From Streptomyces sp. HUAS 15-9 (GTDB taxonomy: Bacteria; Actinomycetota; Actinomycetes; Streptomycetales; Streptomycetaceae), in assembly GCF_025642155.1 (NCBI RefSeq), contig NZ_CP106798.1, forward strand, positions 3,534,001 through 3,598,000: DNA of 64,000 nucleotides, in the 5' to 3' direction. A model generated the notes under the pieces. That model worked only from the letters and a program-made list of their open reading frames with translations. It made no database searches and was not told the DNA's origin. Below, one piece after another: positions 2,274 to 56,831 of the stretch. Position 1 is the first letter of the stretch. The number at the start of each line of letters is the position of its first letter. The translations under genes and the position numbers were made by a program.

Positions 2274-5200
2274 TGCTGGCTCCCGTCGGGGCGCTCACTG
2301 TCGGTGGTGCCGTGGGGGTGGGGCTGCGACGGGTCATAGGCCTGGTCGTAGCCCTGCTGGTACGTCGGGTCGTACGGCATCTGTCCGCCCTGTCCGCCGT
2401 ACGCGTACGGGTCGTACTGGCCGCTCTGGTACGGGTCGGCCTGGTACGCCTGCTGGTCGTAGCCACCCGTCTGGTACTGCCCGGCGCCCTGGTACTGGTC
2501 GCCGTAGGCGGGGTAGCCGTCGCCCGCGTAGCCCGACGCGTCCCAGTCGCCGTAGGACTGCTGGTGCGGGACGGCGGCGGGAGCCTCCTCCTGAGGAGGA
2601 GGCACGCTGCCGGGGTCGGACTCGTCCGCGTCGGCGGTCTCCGCGGCCTCGGCCTGGGCCCGCAGACGGCGGGCGCGACGGCCCTCACCGGCGGGGGCCT
2701 GGGCGGGGACGGCGGTCTCCTCCTCGGGAAGGTCGTCGTCGATGTTGCGGCGGCGGCCCGGCAGGGCGAGCACGACGAGGACGACGGCGAGTGAGCCCTG
2801 GGCCCACAGCCAGCCGGTGTGGCCGACGGGGGCGTCGTAGGTGACGTCCAGCCGTCCCCCGGTGGAGGGGAGTTCGAAGCCCTGGGCCCAGCCGTCGACC
2901 GTGGTGCGGATGAGCGGCCTGCCGTCCAGGGTGGCGGTCCAGCCCTCGGCGGCGGAGTCGGCCAGGCGCAGGACACGGCCGTCGGCGCCGGTCGGGATCG
3001 TGGTGTGGATCTCGACGGGTCCGGCGGCGACCGGCTGTGCGGTGCCCGAGCCCGAGGCGGGCACGATCGCGGCCCGTGAGACCTGCTGGTCGACGCGCCA
3101 CAGCGCGCTGCCGCTCTGCTGGCTGAGCCGGGTCAGGCCGGGCGTGGCGTCCAGGACGCGGGTGACCTCGCGGGGCGCGCCGTTGTGGACCAGGACGTAG
3201 CGCACGGCGAAGCCGCCGAGCTGGTTCGCCTGGTCGGCGCCGGAGCCGGCGACGAGGTTGCCGACGACCTTGTCGAGCCTGCCGTTCTCACCGTCGGTCG
3301 CGGCCAGTTCGGCATCACCCATGCGGGCACCGGAGCCGCGGACCAGGGTGTAGCGGACGCGGGCGGTGGAGTCGCTGTCGAGGACCAGGGTGCGGGCCTG
3401 GTCGCGGGTGCCGCTCTCCTCGGCGACGAACGCGGGCACCTGCACCGGGTCGCGTCGCTGCACGGGACCGTCGGCGCCGCCGATCATCCAGCCGGCGGCG
3501 ACGAGCAGCGGGCCCGCGGCCGAGGCGAGCGCGATCAGCGCGGCGACCGGCTGGCGCCAGCCGAAGTTCTGCTCGGCCACGCGTGCGCGTGCCCCGTCGG
3601 CGCCGAGCGCGGCGGCGGCCAGCAGCGCGATGCCGTAGACGAGGGTCGCGGGTCCGGCCCAGGTGGAGCTGTTGGACAGGGCCGCGAAGACGAGGCCCAC
3701 CAGCGCGACCGTCCAGGCCGTGCGGATTCCCAGCTGTCGCTCGGAGCGCATCAGGGCGGCCAGCGCGGCCAGGACGATGCCGAGGAGCATCAGCCCGTTC
3801 ACGGTGCCAGGGCCGCCCGGGCTGGCGCCGAGCAGGTCGAGGGCGGAGGCGGCCGAGGAGCCGTACTCCAGTCCGGCCTCCTTGAAGAAGCCGAACGGGA
3901 GCAGCGTCAGCGACCAGGGCGCGAGGACCAGCAGCGGGGTGCCCAGCTGGACCAGGAAGCGCAGGCTGTGGGCGATGGGGTCGCGGCGGCGCACGGCCAG
4001 TACGCCGATGCCCAGGACCAGTGCGATCGGCCACACGATCGGTGTGAAGGCGGTGGCCAGGGTCAGCAGCAGCGCGTACGCCCAGGTGGCGCGCCAACTG
4101 CCGCGTGCACCCGAGGAGTTGGCCAGTCCGGCCGCGGCGGTGCCCGCGCGGGCGAGGAGCGGCAGCAGGACGGCGAGGACGGCGGTGCCGATGCGGCCAC
4201 CGGCCAGGGCGCCGGTGGCGGCGGGCAGGAAGGCGTAGGCGACGGCCGCCCACGCGCGCAGCAGGCGGGACTCGACGAGCGGGCGGGAGGCGAAGTAGGC
4301 GGTGAACCCGGCCAGCGGCACCGAGCCGACGAGCAGGACCGTGACCGCGAGGCCGGTCGAGCCGAACAGCGTGGAGGCCAGCATCGCGACGAGGGCGAGG
4401 TAGGGCGGCGCGGCAGGGGTGCCGCCCGCGCCCACCGGGTGCCAGGCGTCCAGGTAGCGGGACCACAGCTCCTCGGAGTCGCCCGGGGCGGGCAGCAGGG
4501 CACCGCCCGCGAGCGCGCCGCCGCCCAGGAGCGCGCGGCAGGCGATGAGCGAGACGAGCAGCAGCACCAGGAAGAGCACCGGGCCGGGCTTGCGGGCGAT
4601 GCGCTTGACGCGGGCGAACTGCTCGACCTCCAGGAAGTCGGCGTCGTCGCCGCCGGGCCCGGACTCGACCGCGCCGCCGTGCCGTCCGGCCGAGGAGGCC
4701 TCGGTGTCGGAGCCGCCGAAGAAGTCGCCGGCGACCTGCTCCACGGTGGCCCGCACGGTCGCGCCCGGTGGCGGGAACAGCGCCCGCAGCTCGCCCTTGT
4801 CGATCTGCGGACGGCCGCGCCTGCGCCGTCCGGCGATGATCCGCTCGGGCCGCAACAGGGTGCCCAGGAGGCCGCGGATCTCGTCGACGGCCTGTCCGGG
4901 GACCTTGCCGACGAGGTAGGCGACGGTCCTCATGAAGGTGCCGAGCGCCACGCGCAGCAGCACCCAGGGCAGCAACCCCGTGCGCGTGTTGACGAGGAGG
5001 GTGTAGACGGCGCCCGCCTTGTCGACCTTGTGCGGGGACGCGGCGGTGCGGCCCAGGCAGTCGACGGTGCGGCGCTCGCGGGAGGCGGCCTCGGCGTGCC
5101 GTACGACGGCATCGGGGGCGATGAGGACGCGGTGGCCGGCCGAGTGTGCGCGCCAGCACAGGTCGACGTCGTCGCGCATCAGGGGCAGCCGACGGTCGAA

Positions 5201-5947
5201 GCCGCCGAGTTCCTCGAAGACGTCGCGCCGGATCAGCATGCCGGCGGTGGACACCGACAGCACGGGCCGTACGTGGTCGTGCTGGCCCTGGTCCTGTTCG
5301 CGGCGGTCGAGGCCGGTCCAGCGGCGGCCGGAGTTGGCGATGGTGACGCCGACCTCCAGGAGCTGGCGGCGGTCGTACCAGCCGCGCAGCTTGGGGCCCA
5401 CGACGGCCACGTCGTCGCGGCCGAGCTCCATCTCGTTGTCGACGACGCGCAGCAGCTGGGCGAGGGCGTCGGGGTCGGGGGCGCAGTCGTCGTGCAGCAG
5501 CCACAGCCACTGGATCGGCTCGCCGTGCGGGAGCTCGGGCAGGTCGTAGGCGTCGTCGCGCCAGGTGCGCGTGACGGGGTCCCAGCCGCTGGGCCGCTTG
5601 AGATACGGCAGCTCGTCCGGGGTGAGCACGGGGGCGCTGCGGTTGGCCTCCTCGACGGCCTGGCCGAAGCCGGTGCGCCGGGCGAGGTGGAGCACACGGT
5701 CGGCGCCGAGGGCGTCGGTGACCAGCCGGGCGGAGTCGTCCGCGCTGCCGGTGTCGGCCGCGACGGCGTACTGAACGGGGCGCTCCTGGCCGAGCAGCCC
5801 GGCGAGCGCGTCGGGCAGCCAGCGGGCGCCGTCGTGGGAGACGAGGACCGCGGTCACCACATGACGCGGAGACTCGGGCTGGTGGGCCGGGTCAAACACT
5901 GCGGTGGCAGCGTCGTGTTGGGCTGCCGTTTGGCTGTGCACGGACAT
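2270..5947 (-). CDS. Large polytopic GT2 glycosyltransferase with Tyr/Gln/Gly-rich tail
   Basis: A 1225-residue membrane enzyme. Residues about 30-330 form a GT2 domain: HVVTAVLVSHDGARWLPDAL at the nucleotide-binding strand, WLLHDDCAPD as the DXD-like acidic motif and LMRDDVDLCWRAHSAGHRV as the acceptor-side motif. From about 450 to 870 there are many hydrophobic helices, then an extracellular beta-rich part, a final TM near 1060, a charged cytoplasmic stretch, and a tail of about 110 residues dominated by Tyr, Gln, Gly, Asp and Pro. The ATG start lies in a Gln/Ala-rich leader. The likely job is glycan transfer at the membrane for a cell-wall polysaccharide. Substrate unknown. It is coupled to the DUF5719 gene by a 4-bp overlap. 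Confidence 0.88.
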   Translation of the reverse strand: MSVHSQTAAQHDAATAVFDPAHQPESPRHVVTAVLVSHDGARWLPDALAGLLGQERPVQYAVAADTGSADDSARLVTDALGADRVLHLARRTGFGQAVEEANRSAPVLTPDELPYLKRPSGWDPVTRTWRDDAYDLPELPHGEPIQWLWLLHDDCAPDPDALAQLLRVVDNEMELGRDDVAVVGPKLRGWYDRRQLLEVGVTIANSGRRWTGLDRREQDQGQHDHVRPVLSVSTAGMLIRRDVFEELGGFDRRLPLMRDDVDLCWRAHSAGHRVLIAPDAVVRHAEAASRERRTVDCLGRTAASPHKVDKAGAVYTLLVNTRTGLLPWVLLRVALGTFMRTVAYLVGKVPGQAVDEIRGLLGTLLRPERIIAGRRRRGRPQIDKGELRALFPPPGATVRATVEQVAGDFFGGSDTEASSAGRHGGAVESGPGGDDADFLEVEQFARVKRIARKPGPVLFLVLLLVSLIACRALLGGGALAGGALLPAPGDSEELWSRYLDAWHPVGAGGTPAAPPYLALVAMLASTLFGSTGLAVTVLLVGSVPLAGFTAYFASRPLVESRLLRAWAAVAYAFLPAATGALAGGRIGTAVLAVLLPLLARAGTAAAGLANSSGARGSWRATWAYALLLTLATAFTPIVWPIALVLGIGVLAVRRRDPIAHSLRFLVQLGTPLLVLAPWSLTLLPFGFFKEAGLEYGSSAASALDLLGASPGGPGTVNGLMLLGIVLAALAALMRSERQLGIRTAWTVALVGLVFAALSNSSTWAGPATLVYGIALLAAAALGADGARARVAEQNFGWRQPVAALIALASAAGPLLVAAGWMIGGADGPVQRRDPVQVPAFVAEESGTRDQARTLVLDSDSTARVRYTLVRGSGARMGDAELAATDGENGRLDKVVGNLVAGSGADQANQLGGFAVRYVLVHNGAPREVTRVLDATPGLTRLSQQSGSALWRVDQQVSRAAIVPASGSGTAQPVAAGPVEIHTTIPTGADGRVLRLADSAAEGWTATLDGRPLIRTTVDGWAQGFELPSTGGRLDVTYDAPVGHTGWLWAQGSLAVVLVVLALPGRRRNIDDDLPEEETAVPAQAPAGEGRRARRLRAQAEAAETADADESDPGSVPPPQEEAPAAVPHQQSYGDWDASGYAGDGYPAYGDQYQGAGQYQTGGYDQQAYQADPYQSGQYDPYAYGGQGGQMPYDPTYQQGYDQAYDPSQPHPHGTTDSERPDGSQQ

Positions 5948-6140
5948 CGAGGTACGGGCCCCGGTTCGATGGACTGCGGTGGACGCCTGTGCCCCGAGGG
6001 GGCGGCGGGGCGTCTCGGACGAGCGACCACACTATCGGCTGGGCAGGAAGACGGCCCGCCGCCTGTGGATAACCCACCGGCGACGGGCCGTTCGTGACGC
6101 GTACGAGACGTGTACAGGTGAAGGAATCTGTGCGGTCTTC

Positions 6141-6404
6141 TCAGACGGCGGCCTTCTTCAGCCGGCGGCGCTCCCGTTCGGACAGACCGCCCCAGATCCC
6201 GAAGCGCTCGTCGTTGGCCAGGGCGTACTCGAGGCACTCGGAGCGCACCTCGCAGGCGAGGCAGACCTTTTTGGCCTCTCTGGTCGAGCCGCCCTTCTCG
6301 GGGAAGAAGGACTCGGGGTCGGTCTGGGCGCACAGTGCGCGCTCCTGCCAGCCGAGTTCCTCGTCCGCGTCGTCGACCAGCAGTTGCTGCACCAGCTCGG
6401 TCAT
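6141..6404 (-). CDS. whiB: WhiB sporulation regulator (Wbl family, 4Fe-4S)
   Basis: An 87-residue WhiB-family protein, the size of S. coelicolor WhiB, which with WhiA controls sporulation septation. The four cluster-binding cysteines are C25, C48, C51 and C57, in the pattern C-x22-C-x2-C-x5-C. They are followed by the Wbl turn GIWGG (residues 69-73), which contacts sigma-A region 4 in characterised members, and a basic DNA-contacting tail ERRRLKK. The N-terminus MTELVQQLLVDD matches my memory of WhiB itself rather than other Wbl paralogues. The ATG is preceded by a GAGGGGCGCAC ribosome site. A promoter-like pair lies about 75-105 bases upstream on the same strand. Confidence 0.95.
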   Translation of the reverse strand: MTELVQQLLVDDADEELGWQERALCAQTDPESFFPEKGGSTREAKKVCLACEVRSECLEYALANDERFGIWGGLSERERRRLKKAAV

Positions 6405-7077
6405 GTGCGCCCCTCGTCTGTCTTTCGCGTCCCCGTGATGTAGCCGTTACCGGTCCCCGGCTGAACGACACGAGTGAAATTACAAGTGTGCTGCTCCGGG
6501 CGAGTCAAGCCGGGATCTGCTATTGGGCCCGTTATTCACTCTGCGGAACCAAGGCCATGCGGAAAGTGTTCAAATCGCCATAAACCTTGACACGCAGATA
6601 TGGCCCGGGAGGGACGCCGACCCCACACAGACACTTGTACGGAGAAGGACGCCCAGAAGTTCGATCGCGTTCCGACGGGACTCATGCGCCCGGTTGTGCG
6701 CGATGTGTCCGGGTGTCCCGCAGAACAAACCCTTCACCCTGGAGATGCACCGGATGAGGTGAAACATGTCCCACATACCGGTCGCCGAGTTGACAGTGCG
6801 GGTGTGAACCGATGTCCTTGGGGGCATGCTCGCGAACTTGGCTCCCACCTCGACCCGCACCGCCGGGTCCCACGGTGCTGCCCACGGTCGCTGTAGCTGT
6901 TGTCGCTGTTCCAGCTGTTGAGCCCAACGCGCTCCGGTTGCCCTTGAGTCCATCCCGACTCGGCTGCTGTCCCCTTCCCCGACCCTGATCCAGGGCCACC
7001 CCTTCCGTCCGTGACCCGGGCGGACGGCACGCGAGACCCCAGCCCCCACTCTTCCGCCGAGGACCCACCCCACGCCC
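6405..7077. other. Divergent intergenic region, whiB / cupin dioxygenase
   Basis: A 673-base non-coding stretch between divergent genes. It holds the whiB promoter-like pair (6479-6508) and a locally AT-rich part (about 6520-6600). A TTGACA at 6790-6795 on the plus strand has no good -10 at normal spacing. No hairpin or ORF with convincing codon use was seen; a regulatory RNA cannot be excluded by eye. Confidence 0.5.
6479..6508 (-). promoter_or_regulatory. Probable whiB promoter
   Basis: On the minus strand a -35 box TTGACT (6503-6508) and a -10 box TGTAAT (6479-6484) are separated by 18 bases. The -10 matches TATAAT in five of six positions, unusual for this GC-rich DNA. It would give a whiB leader of roughly 70 bases. 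Promoter strength and sigma factor are inferred. Confidence 0.6.
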
Positions 7078-7620
7078 ATGAACAGCGACAACGACCTCCA
7101 GATCGCCGGCGACATCCTCGAAGTCCCGCACCTGCTGCAGCCCCCGCGCGAGCACCCGGCCACCGTCGCCGAGTTCGTCGGCCTGGCCCGCGCCATCGCC
7201 GCCGACCGCTCCCAGTGGGAGCACCTCGTCCGGTACGACGCGACGACCCGCTGGTACCACCGGCTGCGCACCGGACCCGGCTACGAGGTGTGGCTGCTTT
7301 CCTGGGTGCCGGGACAGGGCAGCGGGCTGCACGACCACGGCCGGTCCTCCGGCGTGCTGACCGTCCTGGAGGGCACGCTGACCGAGCGGACCGAGCGGGG
7401 CACGCGCGCGTTGGAGGCGGGCGCGCAGCGGGTGTTCGCGCCGGGGTATGTGCACGAGGTCGTCAACGACACGCTGGAGCCGGCGGTCAGCCTGCACGTC
7501 TACCACCCGGGCCTGACCGAGATGCCCATGCTCCCCCAGTCTCAACTTCGTTCGACCGGGGGGACCCCCATCTCCCCGCACTGCGAGGCGGGCGCGCGGC
7601 CCCGTCGGGTGACTGCCTGA
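7078..7620 (+). CDS. Cysteine dioxygenase-family cupin protein
   Basis: A 180-residue cupin. The metal-site motif GSGLHDHGRSSGVL (near residues 80-93) supplies the HxH pair and APGYVHEVVND (near 122-132) the third histidine, the 3-His facial site of thiol dioxygenases that oxidise cysteine to its sulfinate. The fold is complete by about residue 150 (SLHVYHPGLTEMPM). The last 30 residues are odd: a 42-bp palindromic repeat (7530-7571) is embedded in the reading frame and rewrites the C-terminus. No strong Shine-Dalgarno precedes the ATG. The gene diverges from whiB and precedes the F420 genes without an obvious functional link. Confidence 0.82.
   Translation: MNSDNDLQIAGDILEVPHLLQPPREHPATVAEFVGLARAIAADRSQWEHLVRYDATTRWYHRLRTGPGYEVWLLSWVPGQGSGLHDHGRSSGVLTVLEGTLTERTERGTRALEAGAQRVFAPGYVHEVVNDTLEPAVSLHVYHPGLTEMPMLPQSQLRSTGGTPISPHCEAGARPRRVTA
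7530..7571. repeat. 42-bp palindromic repeat, copy 1 (inside cupin gene)
   Basis: A short imperfect palindrome with C-rich left and G-rich right arms (CTCCCCCA ... GGGGGGACCCCCA). It aligns without gaps to 48503-48544, with roughly three quarters of positions identical. The outer arms and the TCTC and TCGA cores are conserved. It lies in the 3' end of the cupin dioxygenase gene. Confidence 0.7.
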
Positions 7621-7699
7621 CGGTCGGCCGCCCGGCACTCGGCGGCCTGACACTCGGCTGCCCGACGCGTTGTCGTACCCGCCTGCCAGACTTGCTCCC

Positions 7700-8659
7700 A
7701 TGCGCATTGTGGTTCTGGCAGGCGGCATCGGTGGTGCCCGGTTCCTGCGCGGTCTGAAGCGAGCCGTGCCGGACGCGGACGTCACGGTCATCGGCAACAC
7801 CGGCGACGACATCCACCTCTTCGGGCTCAAGGTCTGCCCGGACCTCGACACGGTGATGTACACGCTCGGCGGCGGCATCAACGAGGAGCAGGGCTGGGGA
7901 CGGGCCGAGGAGACCTTCCACCTCAAGGAGGAGCTCGCGGCGTACGGGGCCGGGCCCGGCTGGTTCGGGCTCGGCGACCGGGACTTCGCCACGCACATCG
8001 TGCGGACGCAGATGCTCGGCGCCGGTTATCCGCTGAGCGCGGTGACCGAGGCGCTGTGCGACCGCTGGGAGCCGGGCGTGCGGCTGATCCCGATGACCGA
8101 CGACCGCGTCGAGACGCATGTCGCGGTCGAGGTCGACGGCGAGCGCAAGGCGGTCCACTTCCAGGAGTACTGGGTGCGGCTGCGGGCGTCGGTACCGGCG
8201 GAGGCGGTCGTGCCGGTCGGGGCCGAGCAGGCGAAGCCCGCGCCCGGCGTGCTGGAGGCGATCGCGGAGGCGGACGTGATCCTCTTCCCGCCGTCCAACC
8301 CCGTCGTGTCCATCGGCACGATCCTGGCCGTGCCCGGCATCCGGGAGGCGATCGCCGACGCCGGGGTGCCGGTGGTGGGCCTCTCCCCCATCGTCGGGGA
8401 CGCGCCCGTGCGCGGGATGGCCGACAAGGTGCTCGCGGCGGTCGGCGTGGAGTCCACCGCGGCGGCGGTGGCCGAGCACTACGGCTCGGGGCTCCTCGAC
8501 GGCTGGCTCGTCGACACCGTGGACGCCGGCTCGGTGGAGCGGATCGAGACGGCCGGCATCCGCTGCCGTGCCGTACCGCTGATGATGACCGACGCGGACG
8601 CGACCGCGCGGATGGCCCGAGAGGCGCTGACGCTGGCCGAGGAGGTGCGGGGAGCTTGA
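7700..8659 (+). CDS. fbiA: 2-phospho-L-lactate transferase (F420 biosynthesis)
   Basis: A 319-residue FbiA/CofD enzyme, joining the lactate-type phospho side chain to Fo (7,8-didemethyl-8-hydroxy-5-deazariboflavin) to give F420-0 or its dehydro form. The N-terminus [19 protein letters not shown] carries the Gly-rich nucleotide loop. [19 protein letters not shown] (near residues 33-51) is the family's Asp-rich substrate site, and [19 protein letters not shown] is a later signature. ATG at 7700 is chosen because the Gly-rich strand starts directly there. The stop overlaps the TTG start of the ligase gene (TTGA, 8656-8659), so the two are coupled. Confidence 0.95.
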
Positions 8660-54402: not shown

Positions 54403-54572
54403 CGCACCCCACCGTTACGGCGGTCAACTGGAGTGACATGCAGGCAAGTTGACCCACCCTAGCCCCACGGACGCATGTTCCACCGGAAAATGCCAGAAGA
54501 GTCACTCCCCCCGCACACGTTGCGTAGTGTCTCCGTCACTCAGCCGGAGTTCCAGGTGGGAGGGGAACCGCG

Positions 54573-54962
54573 GTGCCCGGAATCGACGAGTGCCTGCTGG
54601 AAGCGATGCGACTGCCCGGTGCCCGGGGCGCGGCGCTCGTGGACTGGACGAGCGGACTGGCCCTGGGCACCGTCGGGGAGGCTCCCGGCGGTGACCACGA
54701 GACGACCGCGGCCGAGGCCGCCGAACTGGCCCGGCTGGCCGCCGAGCACGGGGCGTTCGCGTCCGGTGACCCGGACGGCGAGCGGCCACCGGTCGAGGAC
54801 CTGATCGTCAGCAACCACGACAGCTACCACCTGCTGCGGTTCGTGGTCACGTCCTTCGACAGCACCGTGTTCCTGCATCTGTGGCTGGCCAGGGCGGACG
54901 GCAACCTCGCGCTCGCCCGCATCCGGCTCGGCGAGATGGCGGATCGGCTGGTACTGGCATGA
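54573..54962 (+). CDS. Roadblock/LC7-like small protein A
   Basis: A 129-residue cytoplasmic protein paralogous to the one at 56339. Both share an N-terminal helix, ARGAALVDWTSGLALGTVGE (compare ATGVALVDYTSGMALGTMGG), a central acidic helix, NHDSYHLLRFVV and a last strand-helix pair (FLHLWLARADGNLALARIRL, compare FLYLVLDQSRANLAMARHQL). This alternation fits the roadblock/LC7 fold of MglB-type GTPase regulators. GTG start with GGAGGGG seven bases upstream. First of five tightly packed genes; no small GTPase is beside it. Confidence 0.8.
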   Translation: MPGIDECLLEAMRLPGARGAALVDWTSGLALGTVGEAPGGDHETTAAEAAELARLAAEHGAFASGDPDGERPPVEDLIVSNHDSYHLLRFVVTSFDSTVFLHLWLARADGNLALARIRLGEMADRLVLA

Positions 54963-55273
54963 CCATGGTCGGGACGCCTCCGCCCCTGCCCGTACGGGAC
55001 AAGGTCGGCGCACACGAGCGCGGCCAGGGCGGCCTCTCACCGATGCTGACCCGGCTCGCCGACGAGCGGGCCACCGGCGTCCTCGTCCGCGAGCACGGCA
55101 GCCTGCACCTCGCCGAGGGCCGCGTGGTGCACGCCGAAAGCCCCCTCGCCCCCGGCCTCGACGTGCTCCTCACGGCCCACGGCACGCTCGACGCGGCGGA
55201 CTGGCTGCGGGCCGCGGGCCGGGCCGACGGCGCGCCCGGCACCGCCCACCGGCTGCTGGAGGCCTACGGCTGA
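54959..55273 (+). CDS. Small protein with DUF4388-like fold, cassette gene B
   Basis: A 104-residue protein beginning at an ATG that overlaps the previous stop by four bases (ATGA, 54959-54962). After a flexible leader, LSPMLTRLADERATGVLVRE, HGSLHLAEGRVVHAESPLAP and GLDVLLTAHGTLDAADWLRA follow the pattern of the PATAN/DUF4388 domain (an 'expression then tag' beta-sandwich with a helix), common in bacterial roadblock operons. No catalytic residues. Likely an adaptor acting with the roadblock proteins; inferred from coupling and fold pattern. Confidence 0.7.
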   Translation: MTMVGTPPPLPVRDKVGAHERGQGGLSPMLTRLADERATGVLVREHGSLHLAEGRVVHAESPLAPGLDVLLTAHGTLDAADWLRAAGRADGAPGTAHRLLEAYG

Positions 55274-55767
55274 CCACGGGCACGCTGGAACTGTGCCACC
55301 TGGGCGCGCTGTACGACGCCGGGTACTTCGCCCTGTCGCCCAGCAGCACCCCGGGCCGTTTCCGGTACGGCGCGGCGCCCCGCCCGGCCACCCTGTGCCC
55401 GGTGCCGGTCATCGCCCTGGAGCGGGAGACGCTGCGCCGCCGCGCCCTGCTGCACCGCATCTGGCCGGACCCGGCGACCGACAGCGGTCCGCTGATCCGG
55501 GCCGACCCGGTGGCCGCGCCGCCGGTCTCGACCCGCCAGCAGGCGGTCCTGGAGCGGGTGAACGGCGTCCGTACGGCCCTGGACATAGCCAGGGAGCTGG
55601 GCCGGAAGGCGTTCCACACGCTGGTGGACATACGCCGGCTGGCGGCGGCGGGACTCGTCTCGCCGGGTCCCACGGTGCCCGGACCGGCACCCCCGCCCCT
55701 TCCCCAGGTCACCGACCCCGACATCGCGCTGCTGAAGAGGCTCAGGAATGCGCTGGAGGCCCTTTGA
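55270..55767 (+). CDS. Winged-helix-like small protein, cassette gene C (possible CTG start)
   Basis: From GTG 55402 the frame gives 121 residues with a predicted helix-turn-helix (ALDIARELGRKAFHTLVDIR, then RLAAAGLVSPGP). Coding character continues upstream (LELCHLGALYDAGYFALSPS) to a CTG at 55270 that overlaps the previous stop (CTGA), with no ATG, GTG or TTG between. By analogy with the ATGA coupling one gene earlier, a CTG start giving 165 residues is plausible. If CTG is not used, the protein starts at 55402. It probably binds DNA or a partner through the winged helix. Function unknown. Confidence 0.65.
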   Translation: MTTGTLELCHLGALYDAGYFALSPSSTPGRFRYGAAPRPATLCPVPVIALERETLRRRALLHRIWPDPATDSGPLIRADPVAAPPVSTRQQAVLERVNGVRTALDIARELGRKAFHTLVDIRRLAAAGLVSPGPTVPGPAPPPLPQVTDPDIALLKRLRNALEAL

Positions 55768-55798
55768 ACGGCAACGACCCGCCGAGAGGAGAGATCTG

Positions 55799-56310
55799 AT
55801 GGCGGCCGAGTCCGACATCCTGGACGAGCTGCGCCGGCTGCGCAGCCGCGTTCCCCAGCTCACCGGGGCCCTGGCGGCCGGTGTGGACGGCCTGGTCGTC
55901 GCCCAGGACGCCCCCGGCGTCGACCCGGAGAGCCTGGCCGCGCTCACCGCGGCCGCGCTCGGCGTCGCCGTGCGGATGGCGGACGCCACCGGGCAGGGCG
56001 ACTTCCGGGAACTGCTGGTCCGCGGCATGGACGGCTATGTCGCCACCTACGCGGCGGGCCGCAGCGCCGTGCTGACCCTGCTCGCCCAGGACCGGGTCAA
56101 CGTCGGCCGACTGCACCTGGAGGGCCGCCGGGCGGCGCCCGGATCGGGGAGCTGGTCGACGCGGCGGAGGCCGCCGCGGCCAAGCGGGCCGTGCGAGCGG
56201 GCCCCGCGGCCAGGACCCCCGCCGTGCGCACGAGAGCCACCCGCACACCACGAACCACCGCAGGCGAAGCGCGCCCGGCGACCGACGCGCGCACCGCAAC
56301 CGACAGTTGA
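55799..56310 (+). CDS. Roadblock/LC7-like protein, cassette gene D, apparent frameshift
   Basis: The ATG follows GAGGAGA. The first 110 residues (SDILDELRRLRSRVPQLTGA, GVDGLVVAQDAPGVDPESLA, YVATYAAGRSAVLTLLAQDR, VNVGRLHLEG) are a complete roadblock/LC7 domain. Near 56132-56138 the frame turns into Arg/Pro-rich sequence. Restoring one G there gives GARIGELVDAAEAAAAKRAV and an Ala/Thr/Arg tail ending at a TGA at 56308-56310, a normal C-terminus of about 170 residues. As written, the frame instead runs on into the next gene, making a 304-residue fusion. Either a sequencing error or a true mutation. Confidence 0.75.
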
Positions 56311-56338
56311 GAAGCAGCAAAGGAAAAGAGGCAGCACC

Positions 56339-56713
56339 ATGGCCAACGCCGAGACCTCGCTCAAAGAGGCCCTCACCTCCATCGAAGGTGCCACCGGAGT
56401 CGCGCTCGTCGACTACACCAGCGGCATGGCGCTGGGCACGATGGGAGGCAGCAAGAGCTTCGACCTGAACGTGGCCGCCGCCGGCAACACGGACGTGATC
56501 CGCGCCAAGATGCGCACCATGGAGCACCTCGGTCTGAAGGGCGACATCGAGGACATCCTGATCACGCTGTCCAACCAGTACCACCTGATCCGGCTGCTCA
56601 AGGGTCGCGGCGGCAACGGTCTGTTCCTGTACCTGGTCCTCGACCAGTCCCGGGCCAACCTGGCGATGGCCCGGCACCAGCTCAAGAGGATCGAGGAGGA
56701 CCTGGAGGTCTGA
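56339..56713 (+). CDS. Roadblock/LC7-like small protein E
   Basis: A 124-residue protein closely matching cassette gene A: TSLKEALTSIEGATGVALVD, YTSGMALGTMGG, DVIRAKMRTMEHLGLKGDIE, DILITLSNQYHLIRLLKGRG and LVLDQSRANLAMARHQLKRI. It is a compact roadblock/LC7 fold with no catalytic motif, expected to dimerise like MglB. The ATG has GAGG seven bases upstream, independent of the frame that reads in from gene D. It ends directly at a 15-bp tandem repeat. The strong, clean start suggests high expression. Confidence 0.85.
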   Translation: MANAETSLKEALTSIEGATGVALVDYTSGMALGTMGGSKSFDLNVAAAGNTDVIRAKMRTMEHLGLKGDIEDILITLSNQYHLIRLLKGRGGNGLFLYLVLDQSRANLAMARHQLKRIEEDLEV

Positions 56714-56831
56714 GCCGGACGGGTCCGAGCCGGACGGGTCCGAGCCGGACGGGTCCGAGCCGGACGGGTCCGAGCCGGACGGGTCCGAGCCGGACGGGTC
56801 CGAGCCGGACGGGTCCGAGCCGGACGGGTCC
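56712..56831. repeat. Eight perfect tandem copies of a 15-bp unit
   Basis: GAGCCGGACGGGTCC is repeated eight times without a mismatch, starting inside the stop codon of gene E and ending 13 bases before the stop of the convergent membrane-protein gene. A degenerate ninth unit follows (GACGGATCC). Perfect identity implies recent slippage expansion. Confidence 0.9.

Follow-up and report, generated by a model that had tools for sequence, protein, structure and literature searches.

A four-gene roadblock/DUF4388 cassette of Streptomyces without its own GTPase and its likeness to conservon and MglA/MglB components

Streptomyces strains carry many conservons (CvnA-B-C-D) with parallel GTPases, and we know of no common regulator of these GTPases. 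Here we analyze a gene cassette that resembles parts of the conservons and of the modules in which MglA and MglB are associated with a DUF4388 domain (which we take to be the PATAN domain). It codes for three roadblock-type proteins, A, D, and E, and for one DUF4388/winged-helix protein, BC, and is devoid of a GTPase gene. The cassette is located at positions 54573-56713 of a 64-kb stretch from Streptomyces sp. HUAS 15-9 (G000:C1:3534001-3598000), the whole of which is referred to as the window.

Some components of the related systems have been described. The roadblock protein MfpD, a relative of CvnB, is reported to be a GTPase-activating protein (GAP) for the conservon GTPase MfpB (PMC9769811). 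In S. coelicolor, deletion of cvn8 genes, including the GTPase gene, is reported to alter the expression of specialized-metabolite genes (PMC8510531, PMC13343842). An orphan clade of actinobacterial MglB proteins was reported in 2014 together with neighborhoods of MglB and PATAN genes, with reference to Makarova 2006; according to that paper, no orphan MglB had been characterized at the time of its writing (Wuichet and Sogaard-Andersen 2014, PMC4316618). A pangenome paper mentions an uncharacterized roadblock cluster in all 205 strains, which may or may not correspond to one of the genes treated here (PMC9640686). In the literature searched, most of it outside subscription journals, no description was found of the A-BC-D-E cassette, the architecture of BC, the E family, or the upstream dyad described below. 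The cassette thus appears to be uncharacterized, as a preliminary description of this DNA had supposed.

The cassette, its distribution, and the missing GTPase

The preliminary description had listed five tightly packed genes. The reading frames are present, with A at 54573..54962, B at 54959..55273, C at about 55273..55767, D from 55799, and E at 56339..56713 (all on the + strand). Five separate genes were ruled out because, in complete relatives, B and C lie in a common frame or protein chain, and the winged-helix protein C is therefore the C-terminal half of a larger protein, which we call BC. Judged from its sequence, the cassette is one operon of the four genes A, BC, D, and E. The tight packing was borne out: the ATG of BC overlaps the stop codon of A (ATGA), and this 4-nt overlap is found in 62 of 71 loci.

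The unity of BC is based on several comparisons. Of 23 congeneric loci, 22 have B and C within a single open frame; in the remaining one, L075, C was undetected. Among the 80 best loci, nearly all from Streptomyces and referred to as the named loci, 71 are complete, and all 71 encode BC as a single protein of 249-406 aa with a DPDIALLKRLRDALEAL-like tail at its end. Both halves occur, in order, in 120/120 homologues of intact BC among the matches listed; this search takes only proteins of similar length, so that split copies could not appear and therefore no count of these can be given. The closest to the window among the matches listed, P0140, is an unsplit BC of 269 aa which is 95% identical to B and 98% identical to C.

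The gene order is conserved, as had been proposed: A, BC, D, and E follow each other in 71/80 named loci and in 11 loci from two other families. Five of the nine named loci without the full cassette are at contig edges (L104, L122, L146, L154, L163), and four carry E without the cassette (L153, L162, L164, L165). A solo E paralogue followed by the same ArsR-type gene was seen in L153, L162, and L165 (at 6001-6955) and in L067 (at 7124-8065). In a first search, E was matched in 34 of 41 genomes (own genome included), in two of them (G017, G022) only through an A-like or partial stretch. The full cassette was present in 22/24 congeners of that search; G017 stops at a contig edge and G022 was not fetched. 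Across the phylum, E matches 21/396 genomes, and with a broader E profile 106/394 genomes of the class (27/137 genera) were matched.

The wider survey comprised 58 loci chosen so that each genus contributed one or two, with relatives added; several are from related genomes, and the set is not a random sample. It holds the 11 collinear A-BC-D-E cassettes just mentioned, all without a GTPase; nine loci with BC and D or A in which E is divergent or otherwise placed; one with BC only; five with E and an MglA-like GTPase; six with E near a GTPase-CvnC pair; two with E and a roadblock gene only; five with E and A only; and 19 with E alone. An adjacent pair of A-like and E-like genes, without matches to BC or D, was seen in L239, L240, L241, L252, and L254, which suggests that A and E are able to function together. 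In L198 (5846-8245), from a distant actinobacterium, an E-like domain is situated within an 800-codon open frame, possibly a fusion protein.

The absence of an adjacent GTPase, already noted in the preliminary description, was confirmed. No match to a GTPase or CvnC profile was found in the scanned flanks of the 93 full cassettes (71 named loci plus 22 relatives). These flanks extend up to about 6 kb per side for the named loci, and reach 3 kb or more on each side in 66/71 of these. There is thus no CvnD GTPase in the operon (0/93), no MglA adjacent to the MglB-type gene, and no separate CvnC gene in the same flanks. The GTPase profile had no match in the 64-kb window either. No CvnA kinase is found among the four cassette genes in complete loci, the flanks being outside the scan for CvnA.

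GTPases do occur beside relatives of the cassette genes. In L199 and L203, from two genomes of one distant actinobacterial family, the gene row is DUF4388/winged helix, Ras-like GTPase, a gene without Pfam match, roadblock, and E. Matches above the Pfam cut-off are Ras (30.7 bits) and Robl_LC7 (65.1 bits) for L199 proteins and DUF4388 (58.8 bits) for an L203 protein; the DUF4388/GTPase/roadblock/E set was recovered in both loci with our own profiles, too. L200 has the row E, GTPase, roadblock, with the latter two above the Pfam cut-off, while L202 and L206 have a more diverged GTPase-like gene followed by roadblock and E (sub-threshold in Pfam for L202, ATP_bind_1). Five loci of family f3 have E in divergent orientation to a CvnC-GTPase pair, with a CvnB match in four of these, and sets of roadblock, CvnC, and GTPase genes are located a few kb from E in three named Streptomyces loci (L153, L162, L164). 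Because E, D-like, and DUF4388 genes share a row with an MglA-like GTPase, and because E elsewhere adjoins conservon genes, the cassette looks like a GTPase-less offshoot or member of the MglA/MglB-DUF4388 and conservon machinery. A GTPase may have been lost or may never have been acquired; the change may have gone in either direction.

Possible partners in trans are plentiful in the window's strain: elsewhere in its genome there are 11 loci for CvnD/MglA-like GTPases, one of them interrupted by an internal stop, and 11 genes that score above the DUF742 cut-off. The same genome has a second GTPase-less cassette (L232, G000:C1:5576000-5588000, at about 4950-6763), which comprises a DUF4388/winged-helix-like gene with an LPRR motif and without a CvnC-like tail, a D-like roadblock gene, and a gene for a 137-aa protein without Pfam match; it adjoins oxyR/ahpC/ahpD-like genes (by reading of the sequence). 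Incomplete conservons were also seen in this genome, with CvnA-CvnB only (L233, G000:C1 8.44 Mb), CvnA-B-C without GTPase (L235, 1.58 Mb), and GTPase plus CvnB without CvnC (L231, 1.25 Mb).

Relation of the encoded proteins to conservon and MglA/MglB components

All of A, D, and E had been proposed to be roadblock proteins, and we found membership for each, by different routes. It is clearest for D (55799..56310), which has a long tail. The window's D matches Robl_LC7 with 65.9 bits (E 2.7e-18), a D profile matches CvnB5 (3leq, E 1.9e-5), MglB (3t1r), and Rv3364c (9hef) in the PDB, and comparison with CvnB gave an hhalign value of 96.6% (E 6.5e-10). In a tree built from 51 roadblock rows, D is nevertheless separate from conservon CvnB: together with the D proteins of divergent cassettes and MglB of L199/L203, it lies across the midpoint from CvnB (support 83/71). 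One row of this tree (cass_L066) is a mispicked neighboring orphan roadblock gene rather than D, and mglA_L200 has a long branch.

For A (129 aa), the window's protein stays below the Robl_LC7 cut-off (18.6 bits, cut-off 23), and the profile matches 22/29 A sequences at E<=1 (best 3.1e-5). Against the roadblock set, A alone is weak (hhalign 3.4%) and A and E combined are suggestive (33.7%, E 4e-4). The paralogy of A and E, as originally noted, is firm (hhalign 99.5%, E 3e-23; 99.8% with other rows). E (124 aa) is very conserved and divergent. No Pfam family, and thus no roadblock profile, is matched by the window's E, and direct hhalign comparisons gave a probability of 0.1 with D and 0.4 with the roadblock set, and likewise nothing with CvnB. 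PDB sequence searches with A, E, or BC returned chance matches only. The predicted structure of the E monomer, compared by VIA re-alignment, has the roadblock fold, so that its assignment comes from this fold alone. E was also considered as a non-roadblock protein; sequence searches gave nothing, and the predicted structure settled the roadblock fold. We conclude from profiles and the structure prediction that D is an MglB/CvnB-type roadblock protein and that A and E are a divergent paralogous pair of predicted roadblock proteins.

The N-terminal half of BC (54959..55273) had been described as DUF4388-like. The DUF4388 profile matches 37/45 full-length BC relatives at E<=1 (best 4.9e-5), and comparison with the DUF4388 proteins of L199/L203 gave 97.1% (hhalign, E 7e-11), which supports the assignment for the family; the two individually scored sequences are below the cut-off of 25 bits, with 12.4 bits for the window's B, which alone is weak, and 11.1 bits for the other. 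The C-terminal half (55273..55767, read in the other frame) contains a CvnC(DUF742)-like winged helix with approximate limits 55528..55662 and ends with the tail DPDIALLKRLRNALEAL (55714..55764), which is similar to CvnC tails. The C-terminal halves, cut by a pattern which 84 of 93 BC proteins fitted and nine did not, match CvnC with 88% (hhalign, E 3e-6) in an alignment that reaches the last residue, whereas ArsR, MarR, IclR, and RpiR controls gave E >= 0.02. Near the N-terminus, the window's BC has LPVR (54986..54997), an LPxR motif as described for the conservon kinase CvnA in PMC4316618. LPxR is found within the first 30 aa of 49/71 BC proteins (shuffled sequences: mean 2.6, maximum 7 in 200 rounds), a short motif that says little about membership. 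BC thus appears to combine a PATAN-like DUF4388 domain with a winged helix and a C-terminal tail that both resemble CvnC; most named copies also have LPxR at the N-terminus.

Compared to a conservon, the cassette has a CvnB-like D, a BC whose C-terminal half resembles CvnC to the last residue, an LPxR motif as in CvnA, and, in some genomes, E near conservon genes. It differs in having neither histidine kinase nor GTPase in the operon, in its DUF4388 domain and the two divergent roadblock proteins A and E, and in the separate position of D. With the MglA/MglB-PATAN modules it has in common the neighborhood of roadblock and DUF4388/winged-helix genes, and with L199/L203 genes of the E, D, and DUF4388 types. 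Those modules add MglA, and L199/L203 have the gene without Pfam match; the cassette is devoid of both and has A. D also fits the orphan MglB clade by its description, which is not flanked by conservon genes, whereas A, BC, E, the operator, and the relation to CvnC are not described in the part of that paper at hand (PMC4316618). The eukaryotic Ragulator (LAMTOR1-5) may serve as an analogy alone. The comparison rests on the shared fold, which shows no function, and on weak LAMTOR5 matches; the LAMTOR1 wrapper, the lipid anchor, and the Rag GTPases have no recognized counterpart in the cassette.

The upstream dyad

A 21-bp dyad, GCATGTTCCACCGGAAAATGC, is located at 54473..54493 and is proposed to be a private operator of the cassette. 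Its pattern, GCATNTTCCNNNGGAANATGC, is present within 200 bp upstream of A in 92/94 Streptomyces cassettes with at most 2/16 mismatches (64 perfect), at a spacing of 77-124 bp; the two misses are L120 and L075. The best match elsewhere in the same loci has at least three mismatches. When the dyad was permuted 200 times, at most 1/71 named loci was matched, compared to 70/71 for the true dyad. It stays with the cassette despite differing flanking genes (the L087 neighborhood compared to L139 and L161). In the own genome, the dyad is the sole site at up to two mismatches (reversed control pattern: five sites). A site with up to one mismatch occurs in 68 of 101 genomes from the genus (this one included), and is the only such site in 66 of those. 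As the reversed control pattern yields 0-3 sites per genome at this threshold, uniqueness is not striking alone, and the position upstream of A is the stronger evidence. Outside of Streptomyces, the best match upstream of A in the 11 collinear (type I) cassettes, with estimated A starts, has at least 6/16 mismatches.

An alignment of 26 upstream regions revealed a promoter-like TAGTGT (54525..54530, + strand) within a conserved TGCGTAG element. TAGTGT is probably the -10 element. With this assignment, the dyad would be centered at about -54 relative to the implied start site, a place that would suit activation. Because of its winged helix, BC is a candidate for the dyad-binding protein and is possibly the regulator of the operon.

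Possible modes of action and the state of the window's copy

We propose that the A-BC-D-E operon belongs to the regulatory world of actinobacterial small GTPases, is without its own GTPase, and acts in trans, a reading which we regard as evenly balanced between right and wrong. Roadblock dimers would be formed by D and by A and E, the latter two perhaps pairing as a heterodimer, and would be held together by BC through its tail. This assembly would dock on GTPases of the CvnD/MglA type (one or several) from other loci and either tune their GTP/GDP state, the CvnB relative MfpD being a GAP, or tie this state to BC. The operon would be controlled by BC or a dedicated regulator through binding to the single 21-bp dyad.

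Several points weigh against this proposal. The analysis brought no partner GTPase to light. The rows with DUF4388, GTPase, roadblock, and E come from two genomes of one family only. Without the tails, the match between BC and CvnC drops to 51% (E 1.6e-4); Pfam DUF742 matches just 7/45 BC proteins at E<=1 (best 0.016), while HTH_20 matches 8/45 with a better best E (0.0031). LPxR has four residues and carries little weight. The split of D from CvnB has moderate tree support with the root at the midpoint, and the assignment of BC to the dyad comes from uniqueness and co-conservation alone.

The preliminary description had suggested a self-contained scaffold or sensor. Independently of a GTPase, the roadblock proteins would only dimerize and hold BC, its DUF4388 domain would sense something, and its winged helix would act on DNA. 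This would agree with the absence of a GTPase, both in the scanned flanks of 93/93 Streptomyces-type cassettes and at the 11 type I loci that belong to two further families, with the private operator, with the automatic name "transcriptional regulator" of many listed BC homologues, and with the conservation of the helix residues FHTLV..RRL (59 of 71 BC proteins, those that fitted the search pattern). We do not favor it, and consider it possible at best, because two genomes have relatives of E, D, and the DUF4388 protein in one row together with an MglA-like GTPase, D is of the MglB/CvnB kind, BC has a CvnC-like winged helix and tail and often LPxR, E relatives are found near conservon genes, and 11 GTPase loci are available in the own genome. 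Action in trans on a GTPase thus seems more likely than a stand-alone scaffold. Alternatively, BC could chiefly be an autoregulator of the operon, with A, D, and E as clients unrelated to signaling through BC. The dyad adjoins the operon and has no other site in the own genome at up to two mismatches, as such an autoregulator would have it; we nevertheless consider this improbable, given the conserved four-gene order with the A/BC overlap and the neighborhood of DUF4388 and roadblock genes in distant lineages, which is also reported in PMC4316618.

A more far-reaching version of action in trans is a Ragulator-like hub. A/E and D would be assembled on BC as an adaptor in which conservon input, CvnC, and LPxR elements are fused, and this hub, without a GTPase of its own, would dock on many conservon GTPases and feed their state back to the single operator. 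We regard this analogy as doubtful. If it were true, about a dozen parallel G-protein pathways would be integrated in Streptomyces.

The window's own copy carries two frameshifts. Compared to 8/8 aligned relatives, one base is missing near 55264 (at 55264..55273), which causes a premature stop in BC, and another near 56132, where the frame of D is lost; its open frame then extends into E, and the tail goes on in another frame up to the stop at 56308-56310. Against the nearest named relative, the lengths of the remaining indels are divisible by three. The frameshifts may be strain mutations or sequencing errors. Because BC and D are frameshifted, this copy of the cassette may be non-functional. 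A GTPase frame elsewhere in the genome (L218, G000:C1:6910549-6911088) has one internal TGA, so that, with the two frameshifts, sequence quality or decay comes into question for this genome. If both frameshifts were real mutations, the cassette would be decaying in this strain and only A and E would be made. That two single-base deletions occur within 2.1 kb while the flanking genes are full length would agree with decay, as would the further GTPase-less conservon sets and the interrupted GTPase frame. Yet A and E are highly identical to those of relatives, the close relative P0140 has an unsplit BC, and single-base deletions are also common sequencing errors; we consider decay to be rather unlikely. 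The flanking genes are hutU-, decarboxylase-, RpiR-, and hutH-like (by reading of the sequence). Directly 3' of the E stop, at 56714-56830, a short tandem repeat was seen by eye, the unit of which (gccggacgggtccga) is about 15 bp long.

A widespread cassette that is without a GTPase and combines roadblock, CvnC-like, and LPxR parts with a private operator is a candidate trans-acting regulator of G-protein pathways. Conservon G-protein pathways influence development and specialized metabolism, and the cassette may offer a genetic handle on the roles of CvnC and of the LPxR motif.

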